The notes beneath the pieces are model-generated. The model was given only the letters and a program-made list of their open reading frames with translations. It was not told the origin of the DNA and ran no database searches. Position numbers and translations under genes: made by a program. Below are positions 15,700 through 41,290 of a stretch of 64,000 bases of DNA, piece by piece. This DNA is from Candidatus Kryptoniota bacterium (GTDB lineage Bacteria; Bacteroidota; Ignavibacteria; Kryptoniales; JAKASW01): NCBI GenBank assembly GCA_036567965.1, contig DATCTN010000006.1, forward strand, positions 124,001 through 188,000. Direction: 5' to 3'. Positions within the stretch are counted from its first letter, which is position 1. Each line of letters opens with the position of its first letter.

Positions 15700-16803
15700 T
15701 TAAGGACCGTCGAGCTGGAGCTTGACAAGTGCGGCAGTTTGAGCATCCCAAACCCAGAAGTGAGTGCCATCCCAAACTAATTGCATGGGCTGATACACCG
15801 GAATATCAGTAGAGTCTGCGATGGCACCAGTAGAAAAATCAATCCTCCCGATTCGATTATATGTATCGGGGGAGGAATAAGAAACCCACAGAGATGTGTC
15901 CACATAAGCCATAGCGTTCGTGTTCAAGACCCATATCCTCGGAATGTTCACTGAGTTCATTAGTTTCCCCGAAGAGACGTCATATTCATCGACAACTAAT
16001 GTTTGTCCGATTGATGGCCACCAGATTACGCCGATTTTTGAGTCGCTCACTGCAATCGCTACAAGATTACCATCGCAACGCTCAAGATAGAAGTTAGAAT
16101 CGAGAGAGATGGTGTTGATGTCGCACTTCAGCATCTGAACCGATTCACCTTCATGATAATTCCATAGAATGAAATATGCGGTATCTTTGTTGAATGCGAT
16201 CGGGTTCCACCAGAAGCGGCCGTATTGACTAGGCAACTGGAACTGAGAAAACACATGCGATGCACCGTTGGATGTATCCACGCTCCACCAATTTTCTGTA
16301 TACGTGACAATCGATCCGTTTTCGAACCAGAGCTGACCAAAATACTGAGGGAAGGTCGGAATGATAGACTTAACTATGGATCCTTTCACTATGGATGTCA
16401 AAACGATGGTGTCTTCAGAATATCTCCTGACTCCATCATGGTAATACGTTGCTAGTCTTACCTTGTAGTCTGTCCCCATCTGCAGAATTCCTCCGGACTC
16501 AAAATTTCCCGGAGAGTCATGAAAGTAGACATTCGCGTAGCAAATTGTGTTGTAAGATGTATCTCCGGACAGTGGCCTCACTTGGACGGCACAGCTGTCG
16601 ATGTTCCGGATAATTGCATCCCCCGGAGCAATGCCAGTCACCCCGCGAATGCGTTGATAATTGTTGTAGGTGATTGATATCTGAGGTGTCCAGCTGTCAT
16701 CATTAGAATACAACGCCTGAAGAGGAACTTCTTTTGTGCATCCCTGGAAAACCAAAGATGCTAATGCGGGAATGAAGAGGGGTAATCTATGGCCGATATT
16801 CAA
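15700..16803 (-). CDS. Surface lipoprotein, copy 1 of a duplicated pair
   Basis: A 367-residue secreted protein with a signal sequence ending in a lipobox-like VFQGC (cysteine near residue 22). The body is rich in beta strands with Trp/Asp repeats, ending in FWVWDAQTAALVKLQLDG, and may form a propeller-like fold. It is homologous along its whole length to the protein at 17771-18865 (shared WTPxxxIxYNNYQRI near residue 40 and the C-terminal FWVWDA...ALVKLQL). I do not recognise a named family. The start is TTG at 16803, aligned with the ATG of the paralogue, and lies inside the end of the upstream outer-membrane protein gene (17-base overlap). Confidence 0.85.
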   Translation of the reverse strand: MNIGHRLPLFIPALASLVFQGCTKEVPLQALYSNDDSWTPQISITYNNYQRIRGVTGIAPGDAIIRNIDSCAVQVRPLSGDTSYNTICYANVYFHDSPGNFESGGILQMGTDYKVRLATYYHDGVRRYSEDTIVLTSIVKGSIVKSIIPTFPQYFGQLWFENGSIVTYTENWWSVDTSNGASHVFSQFQLPSQYGRFWWNPIAFNKDTAYFILWNYHEGESVQMLKCDINTISLDSNFYLERCDGNLVAIAVSDSKIGVIWWPSIGQTLVVDEYDVSSGKLMNSVNIPRIWVLNTNAMAYVDTSLWVSYSSPDTYNRIGRIDFSTGAIADSTDIPVYQPMQLVWDGTHFWVWDAQTAALVKLQLDGP

Positions 16804-17770: not shown

Positions 17771-18865
17771 CTACTGACCTTCAAGTTGGAGCTTGACAAG
17801 GGCTTTCCTCTCTGCGTCCCAGACCCAGAAGTTGGCACCGTCCCACGCGAGGCCGACCGGGGCGTACACTGGAATGATCTTGATATCAAGCAATTCACCA
17901 GACGAGTCTACTCTGCCAATTGCGCTGTTCCCGTTAGTAGAAATGGTCCATACACTCGTATCCACATAGCAACTATTATACGAAGATGGGTAGGTGTAGA
18001 AGGAATATCCAGAGTTGAGGAGAGTTCCAGAATGAATGTCGAACTCTCTGAAAATGTCGCCGACGCCGGAGTTGAACCAGGTTAACCGGATCCTCTCGTG
18101 ACTCGCTATGATACCTTGGAGAGTAAATTCCGCAGTCCCAAAGACCAGACTGCTGTCAAGCCATCCGTTAAACGGATCATAGCGGAGAAGAGGAAAGGGC
18201 TGTCCGACGGAAATCTGTTCGGACCCAAAATAGACGGTATCACCGCTGATGGTAACGGAAGTCATATAATAAGAGTACTGCGATGCAGATGGTAAGACGG
18301 GGCCAGAACTGACGAGTGATGTATTGCCATTAGAAGTATCGATCATCCACATGGAGAAAGAGCCATCGCAAAGAAGAATACCTCGACGACTAAATGAGAA
18401 CGCTATTGGGTAGGTACCTGCGGGAGTCAGGATTTCTTTCAGAACTTTTCCCGGAACGACCGGCGATACGATCGTCGTGTCCGTTGAGTACCTGACAACA
18501 CCGTCCTTGTAGTAGATTGCGATCCTCACTGCATAGGTCGCTCCCATCTGTAGAACCGGGCCAGTCCAGAATCCGCCACCTCCGTATGTGGTTGGATTCT
18601 CCGCAGTAACCACGATGCTAAACGTATCCTCAATGGCAGGTTTTATCTGGACCACGCAACTGTCAAAGTTATTCACGAGACTTGCCCTGGGTACCTTTGA
18701 AAAACTCCCGGAAATCCTCTGGTAATTATTATAGCCGATAGTGAAACTTGGAGTCCAGTCATCCTCACCCGTGTAAACAGGACCGAGTGGGACTGTTTTT
18801 GTGCAGGCGAACGACACAAATACCGCAGCAATAGAAAGAAGGACCGATGATATCCTAGAATTCAT
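17771..18865 (-). CDS. Surface lipoprotein, copy 2 of a duplicated pair
   Basis: A 364-residue lipoprotein with signal sequence ending in VSFAC (cysteine near residue 21). Clear paralogue of the protein at 15700-16803, sharing the CTKxVPL start of the mature chain, the WTPxxxIxYNNYQRI segment, the repeated Asp-Thr-Ser strands and the C-terminal FWVWDAERKALVKLQLEG. It has an ATG start with GGAG eight bases upstream and overlaps the preceding barrel gene by 11 bases. No enzyme motif was seen; a role in surface binding or assembly with the barrel partner is inferred from the conserved pairing. Confidence 0.85.
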   Translation of the reverse strand: MNSRISSVLLSIAAVFVSFACTKTVPLGPVYTGEDDWTPSFTIGYNNYQRISGSFSKVPRASLVNNFDSCVVQIKPAIEDTFSIVVTAENPTTYGGGGFWTGPVLQMGATYAVRIAIYYKDGVVRYSTDTTIVSPVVPGKVLKEILTPAGTYPIAFSFSRRGILLCDGSFSMWMIDTSNGNTSLVSSGPVLPSASQYSYYMTSVTISGDTVYFGSEQISVGQPFPLLRYDPFNGWLDSSLVFGTAEFTLQGIIASHERIRLTWFNSGVGDIFREFDIHSGTLLNSGYSFYTYPSSYNSCYVDTSVWTISTNGNSAIGRVDSSGELLDIKIIPVYAPVGLAWDGANFWVWDAERKALVKLQLEGQ

Positions 18866-28627: not shown

Positions 28628-31600
28628 TCAGTACTTAACAGCCTTGTCAGGATACTGTGGCGGAGGTGGAACCGGAACGGGCTGTTCCTGGATTTCCTTT
28701 CTCAGATAATTTATCGCCGCTTCCAGTTGCGCGTCTTTCCCCTGGAATGTCTGATACGGGCCATTGTCGACCACCAAGTCCGGGTCTACTCCGTGTCCCT
28801 CGATCAGCCATTTCCCTTCCGGTCCGTAGACTCCGGTTTCCGCTGCGGATGCAATACCCTTGTCGCGGAGCCAGTTGTCGAACGACAGCCAGATCTCTCC
28901 GCCCCACGTGCGCGTTCCAATCACCTTTCCGAGTCCGAGGCGTTTGAAACCTTCGGTGAAAGCTTCACCATCGGACGCGGTGAACTCATTGCACAAGACA
29001 ATGATGTGCCCGCGGAACGCGTACTGCATATTCCAGCTCGGTTTCCCGGTCCGTGGTTTCCAGTACATCCAGGCTTTTCTCATAAGCTTCTCCAGAATCC
29101 AGCTGTCAATGTTACCGCCTTGATTATTACGAACGTCGACAATGAGCCCATCTCTGTTAAACACTGGATAGAATCCCTTGACCCATTCTGTGAAATTGCC
29201 GCCGCCCATCGCCCGGAGGTGAACATATCCGATATGACCTTCGCTCTCCTTTTCGACGATCATCCTCCTCGAATTCTCCCAGTCACTGTACTTGAGGTTC
29301 GAGGCGGCAGATTGAGAAATCGGAACCACTATTGCATCGATTTCTTTTCCGGATGCTGACGACCTGACATGAAGGAGTACTTGCTGTCCCACCTTGCCTT
29401 CGAGCAACATCTGCATAGATGGAACGGACAGGGTATTGGTACCGTTTACCGACAGGATAACATCTCCATCCGCAATATTGACTCCCGGCTTGGCGAGCGG
29501 AGACAACACATCGAGGTAATCCGGATCGGGTCTGTAGATATGTTCAACCATGTAACCACCGCTCTTATCGTCGCGCGTAACGAGGGCACCAAGCGAACCG
29601 ATACTGATCTGGTCGGTTGCAGTCCTGATATCTCCCCCGACCACGAAAGTGTGGAGCGCCGACAGCTCTGCGACGATTTGGCCGATCAGATCATTGAGCT
29701 CATCTCGGTCGGTTACCCTGTCTACGAGCGGAAGATATCTGTTCAAAGTCGAATCGTAATTTACCCCCTGCAGGTGAGGATCGTAAAAGAAATCTCGTTC
29801 CAGCCGCCAGGCGTCTACGAACATCTGTCGCCATTCCTCTTTCGGGTTGAATGAGAATGTCCAGCTGGCAAGATTGACGCTCGCTTTAGAAATCTCAGAC
29901 GGCGGAGAAGAGGAGGCATCGATCACATATATCCCGCCATCCTTTCGAAGCTCGATCTTCTTACCATCCCCGGAAAGCTCATAGCTCTCAATGTCGTCCA
30001 CAAGTGTCTTAGCCAAAACATCTTTGTCTTTGATCTCGACTGCCTCGAGCTTCGTTTTGGACCCGATCCCGGAAGGGTGTTCGGCGACGAAAAGATCTTT
30101 TCCGTTTACCGAGAGGTTAAAGTAATCCCCAGCCGGCACCGGAACTTCCTGAACTCTCGACCCGATTCCGTCGAAGTCTATCTTGACCTGGACGGTCTTT
30201 TCTTCTTTGCTCTTGTCGTTCTGGTCGTCTTTACTTTTCCCTTGTTCACCGCTCTGAAGCTCATTTGGAGGTGTGAAAGGAAATTTTTCGTCCTTCGCCA
30301 GTGCTATTCCATAAATCTTCGTCGTCTTGTCGTAGAAAGGTTCAGGTTCACGCGATCCCCACGGGCTGTACACGCTCGACTGAAATGTCCTCTCGGAGAG
30401 AAAGTACATCCATTTCCCGTCCGGGCTCCAGGCGGGGTTGTAGCTGTCAACACGGTCGTCGGTAAGCGTATGATTGGCCGCCGCCTCAACGTCGTAAACG
30501 ACCAGCTGGGAATAAAGATTCGCGGCCGGACCTGAGTATGCGAGCCACTTACTGTCAGGAGACCAGGTCAGATCGGAATAACCGCCGTATTCAGATGTCC
30601 CCACCACGGTCTGCTTCTTGGATTCGAGATCATAGATCACCAGCCTGTCGTCTTTTTCAGTGTAGGCAAGCATCTTTCCGTCGGGTGACGGGATCCCCTC
30701 ATTCCTGTATCCTCTGCCCTGGTTTGAGAGCTGAACTCCTTCTCCGACACCGTTGGAGGGATATTTCCAAAACTCGATTTCACCACTCTCCTCAGATTGG
30801 AGAACGACGGACTTCCCGTCCGGCGTGAATCTCGCGTTGCTGTAACGAACGCCGCTCTTGCGAGTAACCTCGACAAGCCTCCCTTCGTTTACCGGAACGA
30901 CAAAGACTTCTCCGCGAGCTGTCAGAACGATCTTCTCGCCGTCAGCAGAAATGTGATCTGCAGTCAGGTAGTCCATCGGCTTCTTGACCCACTTCGTGAC
31001 TTCCTGATCGAAATCGGAGGACAGAGCAATCTGAAGTTGACTGTCATGCTTCGTCGCGATGTCGTAAAGATAAAGATCTGCTCCATCATGGTACACTATT
31101 CTACCGCCATCGAGAGATGGGGTGCTCACGTCAAATCCCTTATGAAATGTTTCCTGGCGGACGTCGTCTCCGTCGCCGGTCATCGACCAGATGTTCATTG
31201 TTCCGTCGCGGTCGCTCACGAAGTAGACGCGGCCATTCCACAACACGGGATTTTTGCTTGTTCCGGGATAATCGCTTGTAATGGGCGTCGCTTCGTCCTG
31301 GCCCTTAATGTATCTCCAGATATTTTGTGCCGTTCCTCCGGCGTATCGTTTCGTGTGACTCCCCTGAAAAGGAAGGCGCGTGAAGTAAAGTGTGTCACCC
31401 GATTGCGTGAACACGCCTTCACTTGCCTGAGCAAGTGGTATCAGGTTCCTTTCGCCGGTAGCCAAATCCAGAGTTGCAAGCTGCCTGTTTGGAAGAGTCG
31501 AGAAGTAGCTCGTGCTGTATATTACTTTTCCGTCCGGCGTCCACCCGGCAACGAGAGCCGTGCCGCCTTCGTAAGTCCTTCTCACAGGAAGACCTCCGTC

Positions 31601-31879
31601 TATGGACATCGTGTATACCTCCGTCGGGCCCTCGTATTGCGCCGAGAAAGCAATTGTCTTGCCGTCAGGAGAAATGGCAGCATACGATTCGGTCCCGTGA
31701 TTCGTTGTGAGTCGAATCGCGCTTCCGCCTGATGCACCGACAATCCAAAGGTCACCCTCCGCCGTGAAGACGATCTTGTCGCCGTGAATCGCCGGGAAAC
31801 GATAATACCCTTCTCGTTCCGTACCGAACGCATACGACGAGGAGAGAACAACTAACAGAATGATAACTGAACGCTTCAC
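28628..31879 (-). CDS. Tricorn-type protease (S41 family), secreted
   Basis: A 1083-residue homologue of tricorn, a large peptidase degrading oligopeptides. It has a signal peptide (ends near AFGTE), an N-terminal beta-propeller of PD40/TolB-like repeats (YAAISPDGKTIAFSA, WSPDGKWMYFLS), a second propeller-like part, a PDZ-like domain (~800-880) and a C-terminal S41 peptidase core. The nucleophile is the serine in NEFTASDGEAF near residue 969, with the histidine in LSALHTFVV upstream. The start is GTG at 31879 with GGAGG before it. Many bacterial tricorn homologues in this phylum are exported, unlike the cytosolic archaeal form. Monocistronic, with its own terminator. Confidence 0.93.
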   Translation of the reverse strand: MKRSVIILLVVLSSSYAFGTEREGYYRFPAIHGDKIVFTAEGDLWIVGASGGSAIRLTTNHGTESYAAISPDGKTIAFSAQYEGPTEVYTMSIDGGLPVRRTYEGGTALVAGWTPDGKVIYSTSYFSTLPNRQLATLDLATGERNLIPLAQASEGVFTQSGDTLYFTRLPFQGSHTKRYAGGTAQNIWRYIKGQDEATPITSDYPGTSKNPVLWNGRVYFVSDRDGTMNIWSMTGDGDDVRQETFHKGFDVSTPSLDGGRIVYHDGADLYLYDIATKHDSQLQIALSSDFDQEVTKWVKKPMDYLTADHISADGEKIVLTARGEVFVVPVNEGRLVEVTRKSGVRYSNARFTPDGKSVVLQSEESGEIEFWKYPSNGVGEGVQLSNQGRGYRNEGIPSPDGKMLAYTEKDDRLVIYDLESKKQTVVGTSEYGGYSDLTWSPDSKWLAYSGPAANLYSQLVVYDVEAAANHTLTDDRVDSYNPAWSPDGKWMYFLSERTFQSSVYSPWGSREPEPFYDKTTKIYGIALAKDEKFPFTPPNELQSGEQGKSKDDQNDKSKEEKTVQVKIDFDGIGSRVQEVPVPAGDYFNLSVNGKDLFVAEHPSGIGSKTKLEAVEIKDKDVLAKTLVDDIESYELSGDGKKIELRKDGGIYVIDASSSPPSEISKASVNLASWTFSFNPKEEWRQMFVDAWRLERDFFYDPHLQGVNYDSTLNRYLPLVDRVTDRDELNDLIGQIVAELSALHTFVVGGDIRTATDQISIGSLGALVTRDDKSGGYMVEHIYRPDPDYLDVLSPLAKPGVNIADGDVILSVNGTNTLSVPSMQMLLEGKVGQQVLLHVRSSASGKEIDAIVVPISQSAASNLKYSDWENSRRMIVEKESEGHIGYVHLRAMGGGNFTEWVKGFYPVFNRDGLIVDVRNNQGGNIDSWILEKLMRKAWMYWKPRTGKPSWNMQYAFRGHIIVLCNEFTASDGEAFTEGFKRLGLGKVIGTRTWGGEIWLSFDNWLRDKGIASAAETGVYGPEGKWLIEGHGVDPDLVVDNGPYQTFQGKDAQLEAAINYLRKEIQEQPVPVPPPPQYPDKAVKY

Positions 31880-32299
31880 TTCTTCCTCCGCAGTTTGGTT
31901 TACAGACTTGTTGTGTTGAGTATAATATTAGTGAAACCCGAAGACTTCATTCTATGGTGTACCAACTCCCGCTGAACTAAATGTCCGCCATCGTCGAGAT
32001 GACCGGGACTCTGGAGTAAAGTCCCTATGGTATAATCCCCGGAATTGCTCCAATACCTTAAGCCGGCCAAACTCACCCGACGGACGGAGTTGTGTGATAG
32101 CAGTGAAGCCGCTCCTGAACTCCCACCCTGTGAAACTCAAATCCAACCTCTCTTCTTCCTGAAAGTCTACTTCCTTTGGACGATATTTCGTCGCATGAGT
32201 TTCGACAACTCGCCTGAGAATATAGGCGGGCGGCTACGATCTATCAAATGTGCTCGAATGTGCCATTTTGCGGGCATTTGGGACAATCGATGTCTGAGC
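31880..32299. other. Gene-free divergent intergenic region
   Basis: About 420 bases between the tricorn start and the VOC promoter. Only short frames without ribosome-binding sites occur. It should carry the tricorn promoter on the minus strand; a TATACT-like hexamer lies near 31920 but no good partner hexamer was found. Confidence 0.5.
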
Positions 32300-32328
32300 T
32301 TGACAAGGAGCCGACTGACAATTAAATT
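32300..32328 (+). promoter_or_regulatory. Promoter of the VOC gene
   Basis: TTGACA (32300-32305), 17 bases, TAAATT (32323-32328). It lies about 90 bases upstream of the ATG and is identical in hexamers and spacing to the rubrerythrin promoter. Confidence 0.6.
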
Positions 32329-32416
32329 CGCATTGCACATCGACCGTCACTTAAGCAATTAGTTGTACGAATTGTAAATATTGTCGCACTTAAACAACTC
32401 AATGCAGGGAGGAAAA

Positions 32417-32863
32417 ATGGCAGCACCCGTCACACACTTTGAGGTGAACGCTAAGGACGCAAAGCGGGCACAGGATTTTTATTCAAATCTTTTCGGATGG
32501 AAGATCGCAGTTGATCCGACGATGAACTACGGACTTGTGGATACCGGCGTCAAAATGGGAATCAATGGCGGGATCGGTCCGGCCATGCCGAACGCCCAGC
32601 CAAACGTTACCTTTTACGTGCAGGTAGAAGACGCTCAAGCATATCTTGATAAGGCAGTGAGTCTAGGTGGAAAAGTAGTTTTCCCCCTTACCGAGGTGCC
32701 GGGCATGGTAACCTACGCGCAGTTTGCTGATCCGGAGGGGAACGTGGTCGGCATCATTAAGGGACCTCAGACACCTCCGAAGGAAGCGAAGCCGAAGAAG
32801 ACTGCACCCAAGCGGAAGAAGGCAGCGAAACCGAAAAGGAAAGTCAAGAGAGGCAAAAAGTAA
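32417..32863 (+). CDS. VOC/glyoxalase-fold protein with lysine-rich tail
   Basis: About 148 residues. The first ~115 form a single VOC domain (VTHFEVNAKDAKRAQDFYSN, FGWKI, PEGNVVGIIKG), as in glyoxalase/bleomycin-resistance proteins. Residues after ~116 are a tail dominated by Lys, Pro and Ala (KPKKTAPKRKKAAKPKRK), resembling histone H1-like or nucleic-acid-binding tails, which is unusual for this family. The frame opens upstream with TTG at 32381, but ATG at 32417 has GGGAGGA four bases before it. It is monocistronic with its own promoter and terminator. Substrate unknown; the tail may target it to nucleic acid. Confidence 0.9.
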   Translation: MAAPVTHFEVNAKDAKRAQDFYSNLFGWKIAVDPTMNYGLVDTGVKMGINGGIGPAMPNAQPNVTFYVQVEDAQAYLDKAVSLGGKVVFPLTEVPGMVTYAQFADPEGNVVGIIKGPQTPPKEAKPKKTAPKRKKAAKPKRKVKRGKK

Positions 32864-32888
32864 AGACGCATTCGGCTCTCTTAGAATT

Positions 32889-32917
32889 TAATGGCGCCCT
32901 CGTGGCGCCATTTTTTT
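32889..32917 (+). terminator. Rho-independent terminator after the VOC gene
   Basis: ATGGCGCC (32891-32898) pairs with GGCGCCAT (32904-32911) around a five-base loop, followed by TTTTTT. It separates the VOC gene from the convergent fucosidase gene. Confidence 0.9.
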
Positions 32918-32924
32918 GTCCGAT

Positions 32925-34289
32925 CTAATACTCTTTGCCCTCAACTGGGACTGAGCTTCTATCTTTTATCTCGAGACTTGCCACGGGCTTATCAAGCTCT
33001 AGCTTTATGATAGTGTCGGTGGCATCGTGTTCTCTCTCAGGCATCCTAACAATTGTGCTATCCAGGCGTAGGTCGATTGACACCTTTCCTCCGGTCAAGA
33101 CTGAAGTGGACAGTATATTTGCCTTTAGCGGTGGCAAGTAAATTCGTTCACCTCTCCATTTCTGAATGTGCAAGTATATAGTTTTTCCTCTGAAGGTTGC
33201 ACCGCCCCACTCGCCATTGCGGAACGGACCGCCCCGCGTGTCGTAAACACTCTCACCGTATTTCCTAAGCCAGTCACCGATTTCTTCCAGTATCTTCACC
33301 TGCCGCAGCTCAATACGGCCGTCAGGCATCGGGCCTACATCGAGAAGAAGATTGCCGTCACCTGTCACACACTGTATCAGAATACCGATGCACTCCGATG
33401 ATGTTTTAAGCGAGTCACCCGGTTTCCATGACCATTGTGTGCCCAACGTCATGCATGTCTCCCACGGCATATTATTATTGAACAGGCCGATCTGCTGCTC
33501 GGGAGTCGCATAATCGGCGTACGGACCGATCTGTGTCTTCACGTCGTAAAGGTCGCCGGTTGGAATGTCGAGCCTGTTGTTTATTATTATTCCAGGTTGC
33601 AACGATCGCACGAGATGGTACGTGCGCGGTTGATCCCAAACTGCAGGTCCGCCTTCGGTATCGAACCAGAGTAAATCGATACGGCCGTAGTTTCCCAGGA
33701 GCTCTGAAAGATGGGTCTGCATGCGCTGAACGTAGGCCGAGTTCCGTTCGGTGCGACAGTCGGGATCGCGCCAGTCCATTGGAGAATAATACCAACCTAT
33801 CTTCATTCCCGACTGATGAGCTGCTGCGGCCAATTCTCCGCACACGTCACGCTTGAACGGTGTGCTGCCGATGTTATAGTTGTCCACTTTTGTGCGCCAC
33901 AAACAAAAACCGTCACAGTGCTTAGCGGTGAGTACCATGTACTTCATTCCTGCCGACTGGGCTATCGCGACCCATTCTTTCGCGTCGAACTTGACCGGGT
34001 CGAATCTTTTGTAGAGGTTGTCATAAACATCGACCGGTATTTCTCCTGTTCCGGTTTTCTCGATGCCGCGTCTCAGACCTCCACGTGACCAGCTGATCTC
34101 CATGCCGACAAGGCTCACGGGGCCCCAGTGAATAAACATCCCGAAACGCGCCTCTCTCCACCATTGAAGTCTCGCATCTCTGTTTTTTATAGCTGCTTCA
34201 AGCAGCGTATCAGTCTGCGCGACTGCGCCGGACGACAGAACAAAAATAAGCATGAAGCCTATCGCAGCGGAGACTCTTTTCAATTCCAT
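32925..34289 (-). CDS. Alpha-L-fucosidase-type glycoside hydrolase (GH29)
   Basis: A 454-residue secreted hydrolase removing fucose from glycans. After a signal peptide (cleaved near GAVAQ) come WWREARFGMFIHWGP, YMVLTAKHCDGFCLW, WYYSPMDW and DLLWFDTEGG, where the aspartate in WFD is the nucleophile of the family. The catalytic domain is followed by a short beta-rich C-terminal part. ATG at 34289 has GGGAG upstream. It stands alone on the minus strand and ends against the VOC terminator. The substrate could also be a related deoxyhexose. Confidence 0.92.
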   Translation of the reverse strand: MELKRVSAAIGFMLIFVLSSGAVAQTDTLLEAAIKNRDARLQWWREARFGMFIHWGPVSLVGMEISWSRGGLRRGIEKTGTGEIPVDVYDNLYKRFDPVKFDAKEWVAIAQSAGMKYMVLTAKHCDGFCLWRTKVDNYNIGSTPFKRDVCGELAAAAHQSGMKIGWYYSPMDWRDPDCRTERNSAYVQRMQTHLSELLGNYGRIDLLWFDTEGGPAVWDQPRTYHLVRSLQPGIIINNRLDIPTGDLYDVKTQIGPYADYATPEQQIGLFNNNMPWETCMTLGTQWSWKPGDSLKTSSECIGILIQCVTGDGNLLLDVGPMPDGRIELRQVKILEEIGDWLRKYGESVYDTRGGPFRNGEWGGATFRGKTIYLHIQKWRGERIYLPPLKANILSTSVLTGGKVSIDLRLDSTIVRMPEREHDATDTIIKLELDKPVASLEIKDRSSVPVEGKEY

Positions 34290-34417
34290 GGCCTATCTCC
34301 CTTCCAATTATGTGTGACGCATCCGCGTGCCGCAATATAAGCCGATGCACAGACACAACGGAATCTTATCGATAGTCGAGACTTGCGGATCGATTCACTC
34401 GGCGCACCAACAACTTC

Positions 34418-34912
34418 CTACTCGACAACTATTGGAGGAGTCGTCACCTCTTGATTTGATGCTCGAAGAAGGTAACTCATTCCTTGGGAGTCAATCAATC
34501 TGACTACAACAGTCACCTTCGTCCCTACTGCCATGACAGGTCCGCCCCGAAATGTGCCTGAGACGCAATAGAGAGAAATTCTGGCCCGCATGGGAGACAG
34601 CCATGATTTCCACACTTCACCATTCCCCATGATTATCCAGACCGCGTCGACTGACAAGATCGGATCAAGTGAAATCGAATCGACGGATGTCGCGTAGACG
34701 ACGCCGAAGAGCGAGTCGTACCCGCCGGGTCCTGAGAATCGATCTTGCTGTACCCAAAGGTACGCAGTCAGGTATAGCCTGGGTCCTCCTAGAGCGAGGG
34801 TATCGGGGGAGCTACTCAGCTGAACATACGGAATATCGGGAGGTGTGGTGCTCCTCTCACCTAGGCAGCCCGCGAAGAGAAGAAGTAAAGACATGAACAG
34901 TCGCAAATTCAT
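34418..34912 (-). CDS. Small lipoprotein, intact member of a duplicated locus
   Basis: A 164-residue protein with a textbook lipobox (LLLLFAGC, cysteine near residue 16). The rest is beta-rich with no recognised domain. The frame extends to 34960 upstream, but ATG at 34912 has AGGAGG six to seven bases before it and starts the signal peptide. Its last ~62 residues have a close but truncated copy at 37674-37862 (shared GTKVTVVVRLID and RGGPV). It precedes a remnant of a glycosyltransferase gene on the opposite strand. Confidence 0.85.
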   Translation of the reverse strand: MNLRLFMSLLLLFAGCLGERSTTPPDIPYVQLSSSPDTLALGGPRLYLTAYLWVQQDRFSGPGGYDSLFGVVYATSVDSISLDPILSVDAVWIIMGNGEVWKSWLSPMRARISLYCVSGTFRGGPVMAVGTKVTVVVRLIDSQGMSYLLRASNQEVTTPPIVVE

Positions 34913-35099
34913 GATCGCCTCCTGTTTGAAAAGCAAACAAGCTGACTCATGTTTACTCAACCCTTTCCTAATATAGATGTTCTGGCTCAGAAGTCGAATT
35001 CAAAATCCAAGCTGGTACAAAGATCCGCTGGTTTTGTGCCGCAAGCGTGATTAGTCATAGACAAATGGTATCGAAGTTTCTTTTAAAATTCTTCCGGAT

Positions 35100-35285
35100 T
35101 TGCCTGCGTCATCTGATTATTGCCCTCTTGCGAATTATTCTTTTTGGAGATCAATTTGTCGGCGTGACGTGCAAATTGCTTCAGCAGAAAACGAAAAAGT
35201 CAGGAGGACGAAATGGAAAGAGTAATGCGCCGCGGGATAAGAACGCGATTACCCATCACCGTCGCATACTTTTCGGTGACGGAAT
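35100..35285. repeat. Segmental duplication, copy A (glycosyltransferase 5' region)
   Basis: About 185 bases aligning with 37900-38088 at roughly 80 percent by eye: shared GATTATTGCCC, AGATCAATTTGTCGG, CAGGAGG and ATGGAAAGAGTAATGCGC blocks in the same order. It covers the promoter region and the first ~25 codons of the glycosyltransferase gene. Confidence 0.85.
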
Positions 35286-35329
35286 CAAGACCACGCTTGT
35301 GGGACCGGCTGGAATCCGCACAAGTGTGA
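35213..35329 (+). pseudogene. 5' remnant of a GT39 glycosyltransferase gene
   Basis: Keeps the ATG, the AGGAGG ribosome-binding site and about 25 codons homologous to the intact gene at 38015 (MERVMRRGIRTRL against MERVMRCGIRSRL), then runs into unrelated codons and a TGA after 38 codons. The remaining ~480 codons are missing; the arylsulfotransferase-like gene begins 13 bases further on the other strand. Confidence 0.8.
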
Positions 35330-35341
35330 GTTGCTATATTA

Positions 35342-37567
35342 CTACTTTACCAACACCATCTTCTTCGCGTCCGAGAAATTTCTACCGTCGGCTCCGAGCA
35401 CGGACACTCGATATAGATACACTCCAGTCGGGTAACCTAGCATGTTTACGCTCTTGTTGTAGGTACCTGCGTCCATTTTACCAAACTGAAACTCTTTGAT
35501 TCGTCTTCCGAGAATATCAAAAACCTCCAGTTTCACTGTCGAGGTTTCGCTGAGGGAAAATCCGATTACGGTCGACGGATTGAATGGGTTTGGATAATTG
35601 TCCATGAGCACAAAGGAATGATTCTCCCCCGAAAGACTCGTGGCCGAGGTGACTCCGGAGAGAAGCGTAACGGAGTGGCTCACGAATGACAGCCCCATGT
35701 CCTGAATCCCCGACTCTCTTACGCCGATTCGGAATGACGGGACGGTAAAGTGCGGAACGCGCCACGTAACGGAATCGGTTGCTGCCGGAAGATTGCGGGT
35801 GATGTCCTGCCAAGTGTTTCCGCTGTTTGTCGAATAATCCAGATCGACAGTGTCGACTCCCGAAGATTGCCACTTTATCGTTATTGACGAATCAGCCCGA
35901 ACGCTGTCCATGTGCACCGGAGACGTAATGAGGATATACGGAAATCGATAAGCCCTGTAACTCCAGATCGAGTCAGGAAGGGTCACCTCAAACACGGTAC
36001 TCCCGTCGGCCGCGACTTCGGTGACGGAGGGATTGGTCAACCCCCACCCGATCACCGTGTTTCCGTTCGCGAGTCGCTGGACATACCCTGTGGCGAAACC
36101 ATATAAGTCCGGGGTATGCCTGTATTGCCAAACAAGAGTAGCTGTCTTGTTGACCATGTCGAGTTTATATTCCACTGCCCGCGAAAAAGGAGGAGTATGA
36201 TAATTCCCGTTGTCGAACAGAGTTATGTCCCCGTTCGTGATTCGTCTTACTGCGTGCTGGTGCGAGAAGCCTATGCTATCGTTCACGAAAGTGAACTGGT
36301 TGTTTTTCCCGCCAAGTCTCCACATAATATCTCCCGTTTCGACATTTATCTTCGTGATCTCGTCAAGATGCCTTGATGACAATATCACGTTACCGTCAGT
36401 ATCTACTTCGATCGCGTTTGCGTGTACGTAGTCTATGGTATGAGCCTGAAGGTTTTCGTGAGTTGCGTCCGTGATGTTGAAATGGTCCCAACTACGCCAC
36501 TGGAATACCACATGCCTGCTTTTATCAAGTTCCTGGATTATGTTCCCCGTAACCAGGGCCGCCGGATCACCACCCGACACTAACTTGCTCATGTCTACTA
36601 ATTGGTAGTCGTCGCACAGAAGAAGAATGTGTCCGTCCGGGAGTATCCTCAAATCGTGGTCATCGTTGAAATAACCGTTTGTGCAGCTGATACTATCGAT
36701 CACCTTGAACGAAGTGTTCATCACATAATGATAGTCGCTGTTCTGGTCGAAGTATGTTAACGTACCGTCCGGTTGAATCTTGAAATCAAGAGACGATTTC
36801 GACCCGACGTTCTTGAAGTATACCGGTTTCCCCTGGTTGTCAGCCATCAAGAGATAATTTCCATAATTATTAGCGCTTGAGCCGTTGAGCGTAGCAAGAA
36901 ATACGTATCCTGGCGACGGATTCACCGATTTTGTCACGGTCAAGAATGGAAAATCGGCCGGAAGACTGTCCTGGCCGCCTGCAAGAGCTCCAAGAGCCGC
37001 CACGCCGGCGGCTTTGCGTGCCTGTCCCCGCACGTCCACATTGCGCGCGTTCGCTTCCTCCTCCTGCATCCGTATCTGCGACACCAATCGTGCGTCAGAG
37101 TCAATGTCGGTCCCGGAGACTGTGAACGAAAACGGGTCGACGTGGACACTGTCGCCGTCAGCCGAACGGATCGCGCCGTCCATCGAGACGGACACCTTTT
37201 CTCCGAGCTCAAACTTCTCCGCCGGCTGAAACAGCACTGTACGGTTATCGTCGGACAAGAGTACGGTTCCATCATGACTACCGCTCGAACTCCCGACCAC
37301 CCTGAAGCGAGCGAGAGCGACATCAGCGGGATTAAGAACGATGTCGCCCCTCACTATTATATTAGACCCCGGAGTTGCCAGCGTGGCACCTGGTAACGGA
37401 GAGAGATAGATGACATGCGAACCGAGCTCGTACGTTTTGGAACTCGTCCTGACCTTGGATTTATACAGACGTCCGAGCGTAGGCGTCCCGCCGTAAATGC
37501 CCCGCGCGCACATCAGACTCATTATCAGAAAAAGATAGTAATGAGCCTTGGTAATGGATAGTTGCAT
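35342..37567 (-). CDS. Arylsulfotransferase-like protein with type IX secretion sorting domain
   Basis: A 741-residue secreted protein. Residues about 210-550 resemble the ASST beta-propeller: DYVHANAIEVDTDGNVILSSRH and GFSHQHAVRR contain the histidines conserved around the sulfate site of bacterial arylsulfotransferases. Before it are a signal peptide and a strand-rich N-terminal domain; after it an FN3/Ig-like region and the sorting domain (DNYPNPFNPSTVIGF to the C-terminal KKMVLVK). ASST moves sulfate between phenolic esters; catalytic competence here is inferred from the histidines. Its gene separates the two halves of the duplicated lipoprotein/glycosyltransferase locus, so it may have inserted or expanded there. 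Confidence 0.87.
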   Translation of the reverse strand: MQLSITKAHYYLFLIMSLMCARGIYGGTPTLGRLYKSKVRTSSKTYELGSHVIYLSPLPGATLATPGSNIIVRGDIVLNPADVALARFRVVGSSSGSHDGTVLLSDDNRTVLFQPAEKFELGEKVSVSMDGAIRSADGDSVHVDPFSFTVSGTDIDSDARLVSQIRMQEEEANARNVDVRGQARKAAGVAALGALAGGQDSLPADFPFLTVTKSVNPSPGYVFLATLNGSSANNYGNYLLMADNQGKPVYFKNVGSKSSLDFKIQPDGTLTYFDQNSDYHYVMNTSFKVIDSISCTNGYFNDDHDLRILPDGHILLLCDDYQLVDMSKLVSGGDPAALVTGNIIQELDKSRHVVFQWRSWDHFNITDATHENLQAHTIDYVHANAIEVDTDGNVILSSRHLDEITKINVETGDIMWRLGGKNNQFTFVNDSIGFSHQHAVRRITNGDITLFDNGNYHTPPFSRAVEYKLDMVNKTATLVWQYRHTPDLYGFATGYVQRLANGNTVIGWGLTNPSVTEVAADGSTVFEVTLPDSIWSYRAYRFPYILITSPVHMDSVRADSSITIKWQSSGVDTVDLDYSTNSGNTWQDITRNLPAATDSVTWRVPHFTVPSFRIGVRESGIQDMGLSFVSHSVTLLSGVTSATSLSGENHSFVLMDNYPNPFNPSTVIGFSLSETSTVKLEVFDILGRRIKEFQFGKMDAGTYNKSVNMLGYPTGVYLYRVSVLGADGRNFSDAKKMVLVK

Positions 37568-37600
37568 CTCTTGTAGCTCCTAATGTTACTTGATTTAGAC

Positions 37601-37614
37601 CTCAAACCTTTGAG
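37601..37614. promoter_or_regulatory. Inverted repeat upstream of the arylsulfotransferase-like gene
   Basis: CTCAAA and TTTGAG separated by two bases, 34-47 bases before the ATG on the minus strand. A possible operator; no partner regulator identified. Confidence 0.25.
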
Positions 37615-37673
37615 TGGATTCTTATCCTGCGGGTTTAATCGACCCGGCTACACCAACTCCGCGATATTAGTCC

Positions 37674-37862
37674 CTACTCGATTACGACAGGAGGAACCTC
37701 GACCTCCTGGCCTGAAGCACGTAAGAGTCCCCTCATCCCTTGGGCGTCTATCAATCGGACTACGACGGTCACTTTCGTGCCCACCGCCACGACAGGTCCG
37801 CCGCGAAATGCTCCTGAGACGAAATAGGGAGGAATTCCAGATCGAATAGAAGACAGCCATGA
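37674..37862 (-). pseudogene. 3' remnant of the small lipoprotein gene
   Basis: The minus strand reads 62 codons and a TAG that align with the C-terminus of the lipoprotein at 34418-34912 (for example SWLSSIRSG against SWLSPMRAR, and identical GTKVTVVVRLID). The 5' part with start and lipobox is gone; immediately upstream begins the duplicated glycosyltransferase promoter region. The frame is uninterrupted, so the loss is recent or was never selected against. Confidence 0.8.
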
Positions 37863-37899
37863 TTGAACGGTGATAAAACCCCTTCTAAAGATTTCGCAG

Positions 37900-38088
37900 A
37901 GCTGCCTGAAGTATTTGATTATTGCCCTTTCGCGATTTATTCTTTTTTAAGATCAATTTGTCGGCATGACGTGCAGATTGCTTCAACAGAAAACGAAACA
38001 GTCAGGAGGCAAGTATGGAAAGAGTAATGCGCTGTGGGATAAGATCCCGATTGCTCGTAATCATCGCAGGTTTTTCGGTAATAGAATT
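37900..38088. repeat. Segmental duplication, copy B (glycosyltransferase 5' region)
   Basis: Partner of 35100-35285, in the same orientation 2.8 kb away. This copy leads into the complete glycosyltransferase gene. Confidence 0.85.
37915..37943 (+). promoter_or_regulatory. Probable promoter of the GT39 gene
   Basis: TTGATT (37915-37920), 17 bases, TATTCT (37938-37943). The corresponding place in copy A reads CTGATT-17-TATTCT, so the element is conserved across the duplication. Confidence 0.45.
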
Positions 38089-39565
38089 GCTCCTTCATCT
38101 ATATACGAACATGTTTGCGGGTTACGGAATATTCCGCGACGAACTTTATTACATCGCGTGCAGTAAGCGACTCGCGCTCGGATACGTAGATCAGCCGCCT
38201 CTATCGATTTACATTTTGACGTTCAGCAGGTTTCTTTTTGGCGATTCAATTTTTGCAATCCGGTTTCTTCCAGCGGTCGCGTCCGCCTTCACGGTTTTCT
38301 TCACGGGATTGACTCTGAACGAGCTAAAAGCAAACACTGTCGCGGTGGTTGCCGCATCTCTCTCTCTGATATTCTCACCCATATTCCTCGGAATGTGCAC
38401 GATCTTTTCGATGAACGCGTTTGATTGCCTTGCCTGGTCCGCCCTTTTCTACCTCACCGCGCGTTTGATCAACACCGACAATCCAAAACTCTGGATCGCC
38501 ATCGGATTATTAATGGGGTTAGGTCTACTCAACAAGATAGATATCTCGTGGTTCTGCGCCGGTTTGTTAATCGGGCTTCTGCTTACCTCACAGCGAAAAC
38601 ATCTCGCGACATTTTGGCCTTACCTGTCCGGTCTGATTGCCTTATTAGTTTTCCTTCCTTACATCATTTGGAATGCGACTCACAATTTCGCCGACCTGGA
38701 ATTCATCAGGAATGCGAGCGCGCTCAAATACGCCTCTGTGACCCGCCTCGACCTCATAACCGGACAGATTCTCGAGAATGGTCCGTTAACCCTACCTGTG
38801 TGGGTCGCCGGAATTTATTTTTACTTTTTTACCGGTATCGGAAATAAATTCAGACTCATCGGGCTGATTTTCCTGACCACATTCTTGATTCTCTTTTTGA
38901 ACGGACACAGCAAACCCGAATATCTCTCCCCCACAATCACTGTTCTGTTTGCCGGAGGCGGAATGATGGTAGAAAAGTTAACGGAGATGAGATACGCTCG
39001 CTGGACCAGGACAGCGGTTCCTGTATTCCTGCTGGTAGGGGGAATCATCGGGGTTCCTGCTGCGCTCCCAATCCTGCCGGTTGATACATACATCAAATAT
39101 GAAAAGGCGATGGGGCTAAGACCTTCGACACCCGAGGCACATCATCTTGAAGAGCTCCCTCAATTCTATGCAGATATGTTCGGCTGGGAAAACATGGCTC
39201 GATCTGTCTCGAATGTTTACACTTCTCTTCCGGTTGACGAACAGAAGCGTGCAATTGTTTTCGCAATAAACTATGGCGAAGCGGGCGCAATCGACTTCTT
39301 CAAGAATAAGTATCCGCTTCCCAATGTCATTTGTCCGCACAACAATTTTTGGTACTGGGGATACGGCGACACCACGAAAGACATCGTGATCGCTTTCGGC
39401 GCAAGTAGAGAGGATTTTCTCAAGTCCTTCTCATCCGTGACACCAGCCGCAACTATCCAATCTGAATACGCGATCCCTTATGAGAACAATCTGCCGGTTT
39501 TCATTTGTCGGGGAATCAGAGTCGACATAAAAGAGGTTTGGTCAAAGATCAAATTCTTTATTTGA
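38015..39565 (+). CDS. Dolichyl-phosphate-mannose/ArnT-type glycosyltransferase (GT39/GT83)
   Basis: A 516-residue polytopic membrane protein with about 10-12 hydrophobic segments. The first periplasmic loop has FRDELYYIACSKRLALGYVDQPPL, where the acidic pair is the catalytic/metal motif of the PMT/ArnT superfamily that uses lipid-linked sugars. The C-terminal ~150 residues are soluble. The likely role is glycosylation of a cell-envelope protein or lipid. The ATG has AGGAGG upstream. A 5' remnant of a second copy lies at 35213. It is monocistronic. Confidence 0.9.
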   Translation: MERVMRCGIRSRLLVIIAGFSVIELLLHLYTNMFAGYGIFRDELYYIACSKRLALGYVDQPPLSIYILTFSRFLFGDSIFAIRFLPAVASAFTVFFTGLTLNELKANTVAVVAASLSLIFSPIFLGMCTIFSMNAFDCLAWSALFYLTARLINTDNPKLWIAIGLLMGLGLLNKIDISWFCAGLLIGLLLTSQRKHLATFWPYLSGLIALLVFLPYIIWNATHNFADLEFIRNASALKYASVTRLDLITGQILENGPLTLPVWVAGIYFYFFTGIGNKFRLIGLIFLTTFLILFLNGHSKPEYLSPTITVLFAGGGMMVEKLTEMRYARWTRTAVPVFLLVGGIIGVPAALPILPVDTYIKYEKAMGLRPSTPEAHHLEELPQFYADMFGWENMARSVSNVYTSLPVDEQKRAIVFAINYGEAGAIDFFKNKYPLPNVICPHNNFWYWGYGDTTKDIVIAFGASREDFLKSFSSVTPAATIQSEYAIPYENNLPVFICRGIRVDIKEVWSKIKFFI

Positions 39566-39722
39566 CTTATTAGTTCGCTGCCCGCGTAGAGACTCAGTGA
39601 CCTTGCAACATCAGGGACAGTACCGGTTCCGGACACTCCGCCAAATTGGACCTCGCTCTGATGATTCGCCGGGAATTGCCGAATCCTAGGGTGTACGCTA
39701 ACCATTTGAAGGAGTAAGAGCT

Positions 39723-39860
39723 ATGAAATGCTGGGAATTCGAGTCGGGACTCGGGAAGGTGCAACCATTTACACCAGCTCAAGAGGAGGTCCTCTTGACG
39801 CAATTCCTATATCATTTCTCTTCATTCCATCTTCGGCGATTTCTGAGTACGTCGAGGTAA
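39723..39860 (+). CDS. Possible small gene, 45 codons
   Basis: An ATG preceded by AAGGAG (39709-39714) at a workable distance opens 45 codons ending in TAA. The product (MKCWEFESGLG..., with LLTQFLYHF) is not similar to anything I recognise. It lies in a ~320-base interval between the glycosyltransferase and the AraC-type gene that otherwise appears empty. The ribosome-binding site is its main support. Confidence 0.3.
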   Translation: MKCWEFESGLGKVQPFTPAQEEVLLTQFLYHFSSFHLRRFLSTSR

Positions 39861-39884
39861 TGTCCGGCAAGCTACTGGCGGAAG

Positions 39885-40277
39885 TCACTCGCCGCAGTTG
39901 CCACAACGGAGTGAATCGCAACCTTTCTGAGAAGTCCTGACATCTACCACATTATTCTCTACTTGCGATTTGACAGTGCCCGGAGTTGTTCCGTAAACAC
40001 GTTTGAAAGCGTACCTGAACGCCCTGGCACTCCCATACCCGACCGATCTCCATACGACTTCTACAGTTTGTCCTGATCTGAGAAGCTGAAATGCCCTCTG
40101 CATGCGCACTCTGCGCATGAATGAGTGTGGACGCTCCCCGAAATGGCGGGCAAAAGATTCCCGAAGATTTGTTTCGCTCACCTTCAGCGCCAATGCCAGC
40201 TGCGCAACTCCGAACCCGGGATTGGAGAGGTTTTCTGCTATCAATCCCGCTGCTGCCTCCAAATGGATGCTATCCAT
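39885..40277 (-). CDS. AraC-type DNA-binding domain protein
   Basis: A 130-residue protein that is almost only an AraC/XylS helix-turn-helix pair: FGVAQLALALKVSETNLRESFARHFG forms the first HTH and SVGYGSARAFRYAFKRVYGTTP the second, with the usual GY...FxRxFkr..G.tP pattern. No ligand-binding N-terminal domain is present. The C-terminal tail has three cysteines (Cys-x4-Cys-x2-Cys), perhaps metal-binding. The ATG follows a GGGGG stretch. Its target is unknown; the small ORF and the carbonic-anhydrase-like gene are neighbours. Confidence 0.88.
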   Translation of the reverse strand: MDSIHLEAAAGLIAENLSNPGFGVAQLALALKVSETNLRESFARHFGERPHSFMRRVRMQRAFQLLRSGQTVEVVWRSVGYGSARAFRYAFKRVYGTTPGTVKSQVENNVVDVRTSQKGCDSLRCGNCGE

Positions 40278-40738
40278 GTTACCCCCTTTTGTTTTGATAA
40301 CGGCAGCGCGTATCGATAGATCAACAGTTTTGTTGTCCGGGGGACTCGGTATTTCTTGACGTCTTATGGTAGGACTCTGCCCACTATCTCGACTTAACTA
40401 ACGTCTCCCTTCCCGCCTGGCGGGACACTCGATAATGATCTTCCATCCGTGAGGCAGCCTTACCCACCGCCTCTCTGGTAAATTTAATACTCAGCATGGA
40501 TCGGAGTCAAGTACGGTTGGTCTTTAGACTCAAAGTCGGACTGGTAGTAATGAACTGTATCTTCTCGGCGGGCACCTCGCACTTTCGGTGTCAACTGGCT
40601 TCTGAAATATTACATCTACTCTTGGCGGCGAACCGCCTCAGAAATCGCGCAGGCAGTTGGGTTGACCTGGCAAGGTTCCGATGTATTCCTGGATCAAACT
40701 TTAGCCGCGCTAAGGCAAGTAGCGGCGTGATTTCGAGC
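40278..40738. other. Intergenic stretch with a possible decayed coding fragment
   Basis: About 460 bases with no intact gene. A plus-strand frame at about 40596-40730 reads WRRTASEIAQAVGLTW and LDQTLAALRQVAA, which looks like the end of a helix-turn-helix protein, but it has no start codon and no upstream frame. A GC-rich palindrome TCCCGCC/GGCGGGA lies at 40411-40425. Confidence 0.35.
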
Positions 40739-41290
40739 TTACCCTCCGTGATTCTCCTGAATGAGGAACAGTCGGCCGCTCTCGATCCGGTATATTAATG
40801 GCGCGACGAGGATTTTCGGGTAACGGAGTCTGAGACGATTGACTTCACTCAATGTAAAGTCTATTTCATTTCCGATTTCAAACATGGGTGCGAACTGCAT
40901 GAAGTGATCCTCCGCTGCCTGTCGTTTCCAACCGGCATTGTTTACAAGTCCCTGCAGGAATTGCTCCTTTCGTGCGACAAGATTTACCATTCCGCACTGG
41001 TTGTGTCCGATGAGGGCGAGACTCCTTACCCTTCCAACTCCGATGGCATAGGATACCTTGAATTCGCTGTATCTCAGGTTCGCTCCCCCATCCCTGATTA
41101 TGAAGGCGAAATTATCGGGGATCCTAAGACGCTTTCTGTTATCCATGCACATCCCAATCAACAATTCCGCACTGGTGTAAACATCGCGCGGCCTGTCCAG
41201 ATTGTGGTACTCCAGCAACAAACCGATCGGCGTGTCCCGATATCGAGTCGGAATGTCGTCTTTCGATTCTATCGGAATTAACCTATTCAT
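40739..41290 (-). CDS. Beta-carbonic-anhydrase-like protein
   Basis: A 183-residue protein with the zinc motif of beta-carbonic anhydrases: Cys-x-Asp-x-Arg (C48, D50, R52 in GMCMDNRKR) and His-x2-Cys (H96, C99 in GHNQCGM). The class interconverts CO2 and bicarbonate; the general layout (FAFIIRDGGANLR, LALIGHNQCG) fits. The C-terminal part is short and the N-terminal extension atypical, so a related or degenerate function is possible. It is divergent from the rubrerythrin operon, with perfect palindromes in the shared region. Confidence 0.8.
   Translation of the reverse strand: MNRLIPIESKDDIPTRYRDTPIGLLLEYHNLDRPRDVYTSAELLIGMCMDNRKRLRIPDNFAFIIRDGGANLRYSEFKVSYAIGVGRVRSLALIGHNQCGMVNLVARKEQFLQGLVNNAGWKRQAAEDHFMQFAPMFEIGNEIDFTLSEVNRLRLRYPKILVAPLIYRIESGRLFLIQENHGG

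Follow-up and report, generated by a model that had tools for sequence, protein, structure and literature searches.

Diverged, complementary remnants of a lipoprotein-glycosyltransferase gene pair on either side of an arylsulfotransferase gene: a case for old duplication with late loss

How does a bacterial genome come to hold two partial copies of one divergent gene pair, each with a different member intact, on either side of an unrelated gene? The question is raised by a locus in a 4.15-Mb genome assembled in 32 contigs; we analysed it within a 64,000-nucleotide stretch, hereafter the window, which lies inside a 203-kb contig. In the left copy, the lipoprotein gene (L1) is intact and about 25 codons remain from the start of a PMT_2-type glycosyltransferase gene (G1'). 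The right copy retains the final 63 codons of another L gene (L2') and an intact glycosyltransferase gene (G2), and the arylsulfotransferase gene AST lies between the copies. The features, in order, are as follows.

32925-34289, minus strand: alpha-L-fucosidase gene (fuc)
34418-34912, minus strand: L1, intact small lipoprotein gene, 164 aa
35080-35285, plus strand: left leader and start of G1' (ATG at 35213; homology stops near codon 25)
35342-37567, minus strand: AST, arylsulfotransferase (ASST) with a T9SS type A sorting domain, 741 aa
37673-37864, minus strand: L2', remnant of the second L gene (its final 63 codons), frame open
37865-37881: scar where about 470 bp, corresponding to 34609-35079 of the left copy, were deleted internally
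37882-38014, plus strand: right leader, upstream of the intact G2
38015-39565, plus strand: G2, intact PMT_2-type membrane glycosyltransferase gene, 516 aa

Base-by-base alignment of the copies, which the original prediction had proposed as its check, gave two ungapped direct repeats. The first (34417-34608 / 37673-37864) spans 192 nt at 76% identity and the second (35080-35285 / 37882-38087) 206 nt at 79%, rising to 82% over 35111-35285; their BLASTN E-values against the window were 1.8e-33 and 5.9e-46, respectively. Both repeats are collinear, in direct orientation and in one place, as in a tandem segmental duplication. They are the only two pairs of repeats longer than 70 nt in the window, and the repeated stretches occur at these places only in the whole genome. 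Elsewhere in the window we observed a 70-nt direct repeat of 73% identity (15705-15774 / 17776-17845), probably the ends of two related genes. The alignment confirmed the predicted arrangement of an intact lipoprotein gene with a truncated glycosyltransferase start on the left and the reverse on the right. The predicted "truncated lipoprotein end" is accurate in that the last 63 codons are kept: L2' is cut off from its start and shares 71% amino acid identity with L1 over these C-terminal codons. The roughly 470 bp missing from the right copy are, more precisely, internal (left-copy 34609-35079): the 5' half of L is gone, together with the intergenic stretch that precedes the leader. TGATT words at 34604-34608 and 35048-35052 of the left copy flank this deletion and are too short to support a claim. 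Homology of G1' to G2 is lost near 35285-35290, and an extension of it beyond 35285 was rejected, since 26 of 200 shuffles scored as well.

The gene products were assigned by family searches. G2 matched the PMT_2 glycosyltransferase family in Pfam (PF13231; 85.9 bits against a gathering cut-off of 26.1) and is presumably, at the level of its family, a polyprenyl-phosphate-sugar-dependent transferase. AST matched Arylsulfotrans (PF05935; 118.8 bits against 24.2, E 3.6e-34), and its C-terminus matched Por_Secre_tail (PF18962; 30.9 bits against 27, E 3.4e-7) as well as TIGR04183 (31.9 bits against 23), as is typical of T9SS type A cargo. These Pfam and NCBIfam domains bear out the prediction of an arylsulfotransferase-like, type IX-secreted gene between the copies; AST is presumably a secreted sulfotransferase, again judged by family. 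L1 matched no family of Pfam or NCBIfam up to E 0.01. Its N-terminus contains a hydrophobic stretch ending in LLFAGC, which we take to be a lipobox-like motif, and the protein would presumably be an outer-surface lipoprotein, likewise a family-level assignment. A single-sequence structure prediction of L1 was set aside (mean pLDDT of 39). A short AraC-type open reading frame of 130 aa with an HTH domain only, possibly a truncated regulator, was seen at 39885-40277.

The age of the two copies was estimated from the L genes. Differences between L1 and L2', which align without gaps in an open frame, fall at codon positions 3, 1 and 2 of this minus-strand gene in the numbers 26, 15 and 6 (chi-square p 2e-4). 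The dN/dS was 0.24 (Nei-Gojobori; bootstrap 95% 0.11-0.50) and dS was 0.79 (bootstrap 0.49-1.41). If L2' had been free of selection since the split, a dN/dS near 0.55 would be expected, with about half of the path neutral and 0.1 taken for the constrained half; this value lies just outside the interval. The stop-free frame of L2' is weak evidence, as 17% of neutral simulations were also stop-free, and the first 25 codons of G1' and G2 (dN/dS 0.37) are too few to time the loss of G1.

Moreover, the two copies share a 102-nt noncoding leader core before the glycosyltransferase (35111-35212 / 37913-38014), which is 85% identical. The core differs at 15 of its 102 sites, compared to 26 of 64 third positions in L (Fisher p 3.5e-4), and has thus diverged far less than synonymous sites. 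If one of the leaders had evolved neutrally from the split onward, as few as 15 differences would have a p of 1.7e-4 when dS is taken at its point estimate and of 0.08 at its lower bootstrap bound, where the argument weakens. Gene conversion of the leader, an alternative to selection on it, would mimic such constraint. Hidden coding sequence in the leader found no support: in some frames the two copies have different stops, and the changes are spread 7/4/4 over the phases. An Rfam search over 34300-38200 gave no match up to E 1, and scans for promoters (6 promoter-like sites against 4.4 expected) and terminators (1 terminator-like site against 4.0 expected) were uninformative.

Codon-position bias in L, together with leader conservation, points to two copies that were probably both functional for long after separating, with the losses later. 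The reciprocal loss originally proposed fits the complementary truncations, and the same two signals favour the view that both copies were once functional; G1' is too short to add to this. By its sequence divergence the duplication is old, because dS is about 0.8, so that the locus, first described as a snapshot of genome remodelling, is not a fresh one.

With moderate confidence, we read the locus as a divergent L(-)/G(+) pair that was duplicated long ago and whose two copies have since decayed, through late losses. The ancestral unit would have comprised the lipoprotein gene L on the minus strand and the glycosyltransferase gene G on the plus strand, with the leader or promoter region between them. 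Since the duplication of this pair, which a dS of about 0.8 would place far back, selection would have kept acting on the two copies of L and probably on both leaders for much of the time. In the left copy, G would have been lost after about codon 25 through a deletion or replacement that joined G1' to the end of AST; in the right copy, the internal deletion would have removed the 5' half of L. One intact L and one intact G are left, so that in coding terms the locus still amounts to one ancestral copy of the pair, with AST now between its two genes.

The left join was examined for a remainder of G1 on the far side of AST, and the AST flanks showed no similarity to the rest of G at p 0.05 in shuffles. 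Because no 3' part of G1 was detected beyond AST, simple insertion of AST into G1, as originally proposed, is unsupported, and the join is better described as a deletion or replacement. Only about 52 bp separate the AST stop from the point where the G1' homology ends, as would be expected of a duplication join point. This proximity suits an explanation in which AST was itself inside the duplicated unit: a tandem AST-L-G' duplication with its right end within G, so that G1' would be truncated from birth, followed by loss of the left AST and by the deletion within L2. Weak flank similarity to the left of both L stops (34290-34417 vs 37568-37673) could then be shared AST-side DNA; however, this similarity is marginal and was rejected as homology, its anchored score of 10.6 being equalled by 10 of 200 shuffles and by 10 of 184 other window segments. 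No AST remnant to the left of L1 was significant after multiple comparisons, the single match (p 0.03, 60 shuffles) being on the opposite strand. Furthermore, a leader without its gene should have diverged more than is observed, unless it also served L1. We consider such a duplication unlikely.

A chimeric assembly joining two strains is very improbable. The genome is in 32 contigs and the relatives in the comparison set are metagenome-assembled, but the copies differ by about 20%, more than a repeat-collapse join would allow, and the contig around the window is 203 kb long.

We then looked for the ancestral pair in relatives. Of 61 genomes, the own one included, 21 gave a match to G. L was found in 6 of the 61, the other five at 28-37% identity and with no congener among them, in 2 of 20 genomes of the order and, within the phylum sample, in 8 of 395 genomes, counts that overlap and include the own genome; it was detected in none of 12 congeners. 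No L was seen beside G at 9 whole-genome G loci (L006, L051-L057, L066) or at 23 contig-record G loci, some of which are the same places and some on short contigs; the further G loci L012 and L014-L022, with flanks of up to 1.5 kb, lay outside this tblastn search for L. Conversely, no G was seen beside L at the loci of 11 L relatives elsewhere, one of which (L065) matched only the T9SS tail of AST. Near full-length AST-like proteins (46-50% identity) are present in four congeners (G006, G009, G011 and G003). In the last of these, two arylsulfotransferase-like genes stand in a row (contig G003:C10, locus L061, 1163-3226 and 4943-6490). The L-G pair thus appears lineage-specific among the genomes compared, all of which are distant (best other G match 63% amino acid identity). 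Neither the predicted ancestral single pair nor a double pair was seen in relatives, a search of little power at this distance. The condition named as speaking against the original prediction, halves that occur as separate loci with no ancestral pair, is weakly favoured by the data from these distant relatives. Titles and abstract beginnings in the literature contained nothing on this locus.

To the right of about 41.6 kb (41614), a rubrerythrin-like/Fe-S oxidoreductase block was conserved in 10 of 10 fetched congener loci. On the side in question, 8 of these loci extend for 8 kb or more, and fuc, L, G and AST were found in none of them there; the remaining 2 reach a contig end after no more than about 0.5 kb. 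T9SS-tail-only matches were not counted. The window is variable over 28628-41290, where none of the genes, those from the fucosidase through a carbonic-anhydrase-like gene at 40739 included, adjoins the conserved block in these 8 loci.

The two-copy arrangement could also result from import: an AST-L2-G2 segment of a related species would have entered a resident fuc-L1-G1 locus by recombination and replaced the rest of G1. Divergence of the copies would then predate their meeting, and the L2 deletion would be the only later local event. The dS of about 0.8 is indeed very diverged for a tandem duplicate, and one event would account both for G1 stopping where the end of AST begins and for the lack of a detected G1 3' part beyond. 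In congeners, the conserved right flank does not have the genes of about 28.6-41.3 kb as its neighbours; G and AST do occur in congeners, separately. However, the AST-L-G order was found in no genome examined, and no mobile-element signature was found: the best candidate for terminal inverted repeats around AST (score 12.5) was equalled by 28 of 2000 shuffles and does not exceed chance once the many pairs compared are allowed for. Gene G+C is close to the window mean, which excludes little. We regard import as possible, at a fairly low probability. As for the tandem duplication of the original prediction, the collinear copies support a duplication, and a tandem origin within the lineage looks the same here as the arrival of a diverged copy from another species. 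Overall, we place duplication of the L-G pair with late loss first, import of AST-L-G second and duplication including AST third.

If the pair was duplicated and then lost in complementary parts, the locus would be a clean, readable case of this sequence of events in a lineage that has been studied little. It also shows that gene order can be broken while the coding content of a pair stays the same. All of the proposed events are of known kinds, and the locus is real, ordinary genome remodelling. No long-standing question is opened by it, and only the conserved noncoding leader, as a possible two-way promoter shared by the pair, has some edge. We give little credence to the stronger proposal that the leader is a dedicated bidirectional regulatory element of the L-G pair, selected in both copies, with the left one now serving L1 alone and the right one G2 alone. 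If true, one divergent promoter would have been split into two one-way promoters.

Two known processes leave comparable traces. Campbell-type (insertion-duplication) integration by a single crossover produces complementary truncated homologous copies around inserted DNA. The present locus likewise has complementary truncated copies around other DNA, but its right-copy gap is internal rather than terminal and the copies are about 20% diverged. In duplication-degeneration, a tandem duplication in a bacterial genome is followed by the loss of redundant parts. Here, unlike in that process, an unrelated gene lies between the copies and the ancestral single pair occurs in no relative examined; the likeness to it lies in the two neighbouring copies, collinear and diverged, in the single functional version left of each gene, and in the complementary remnants.
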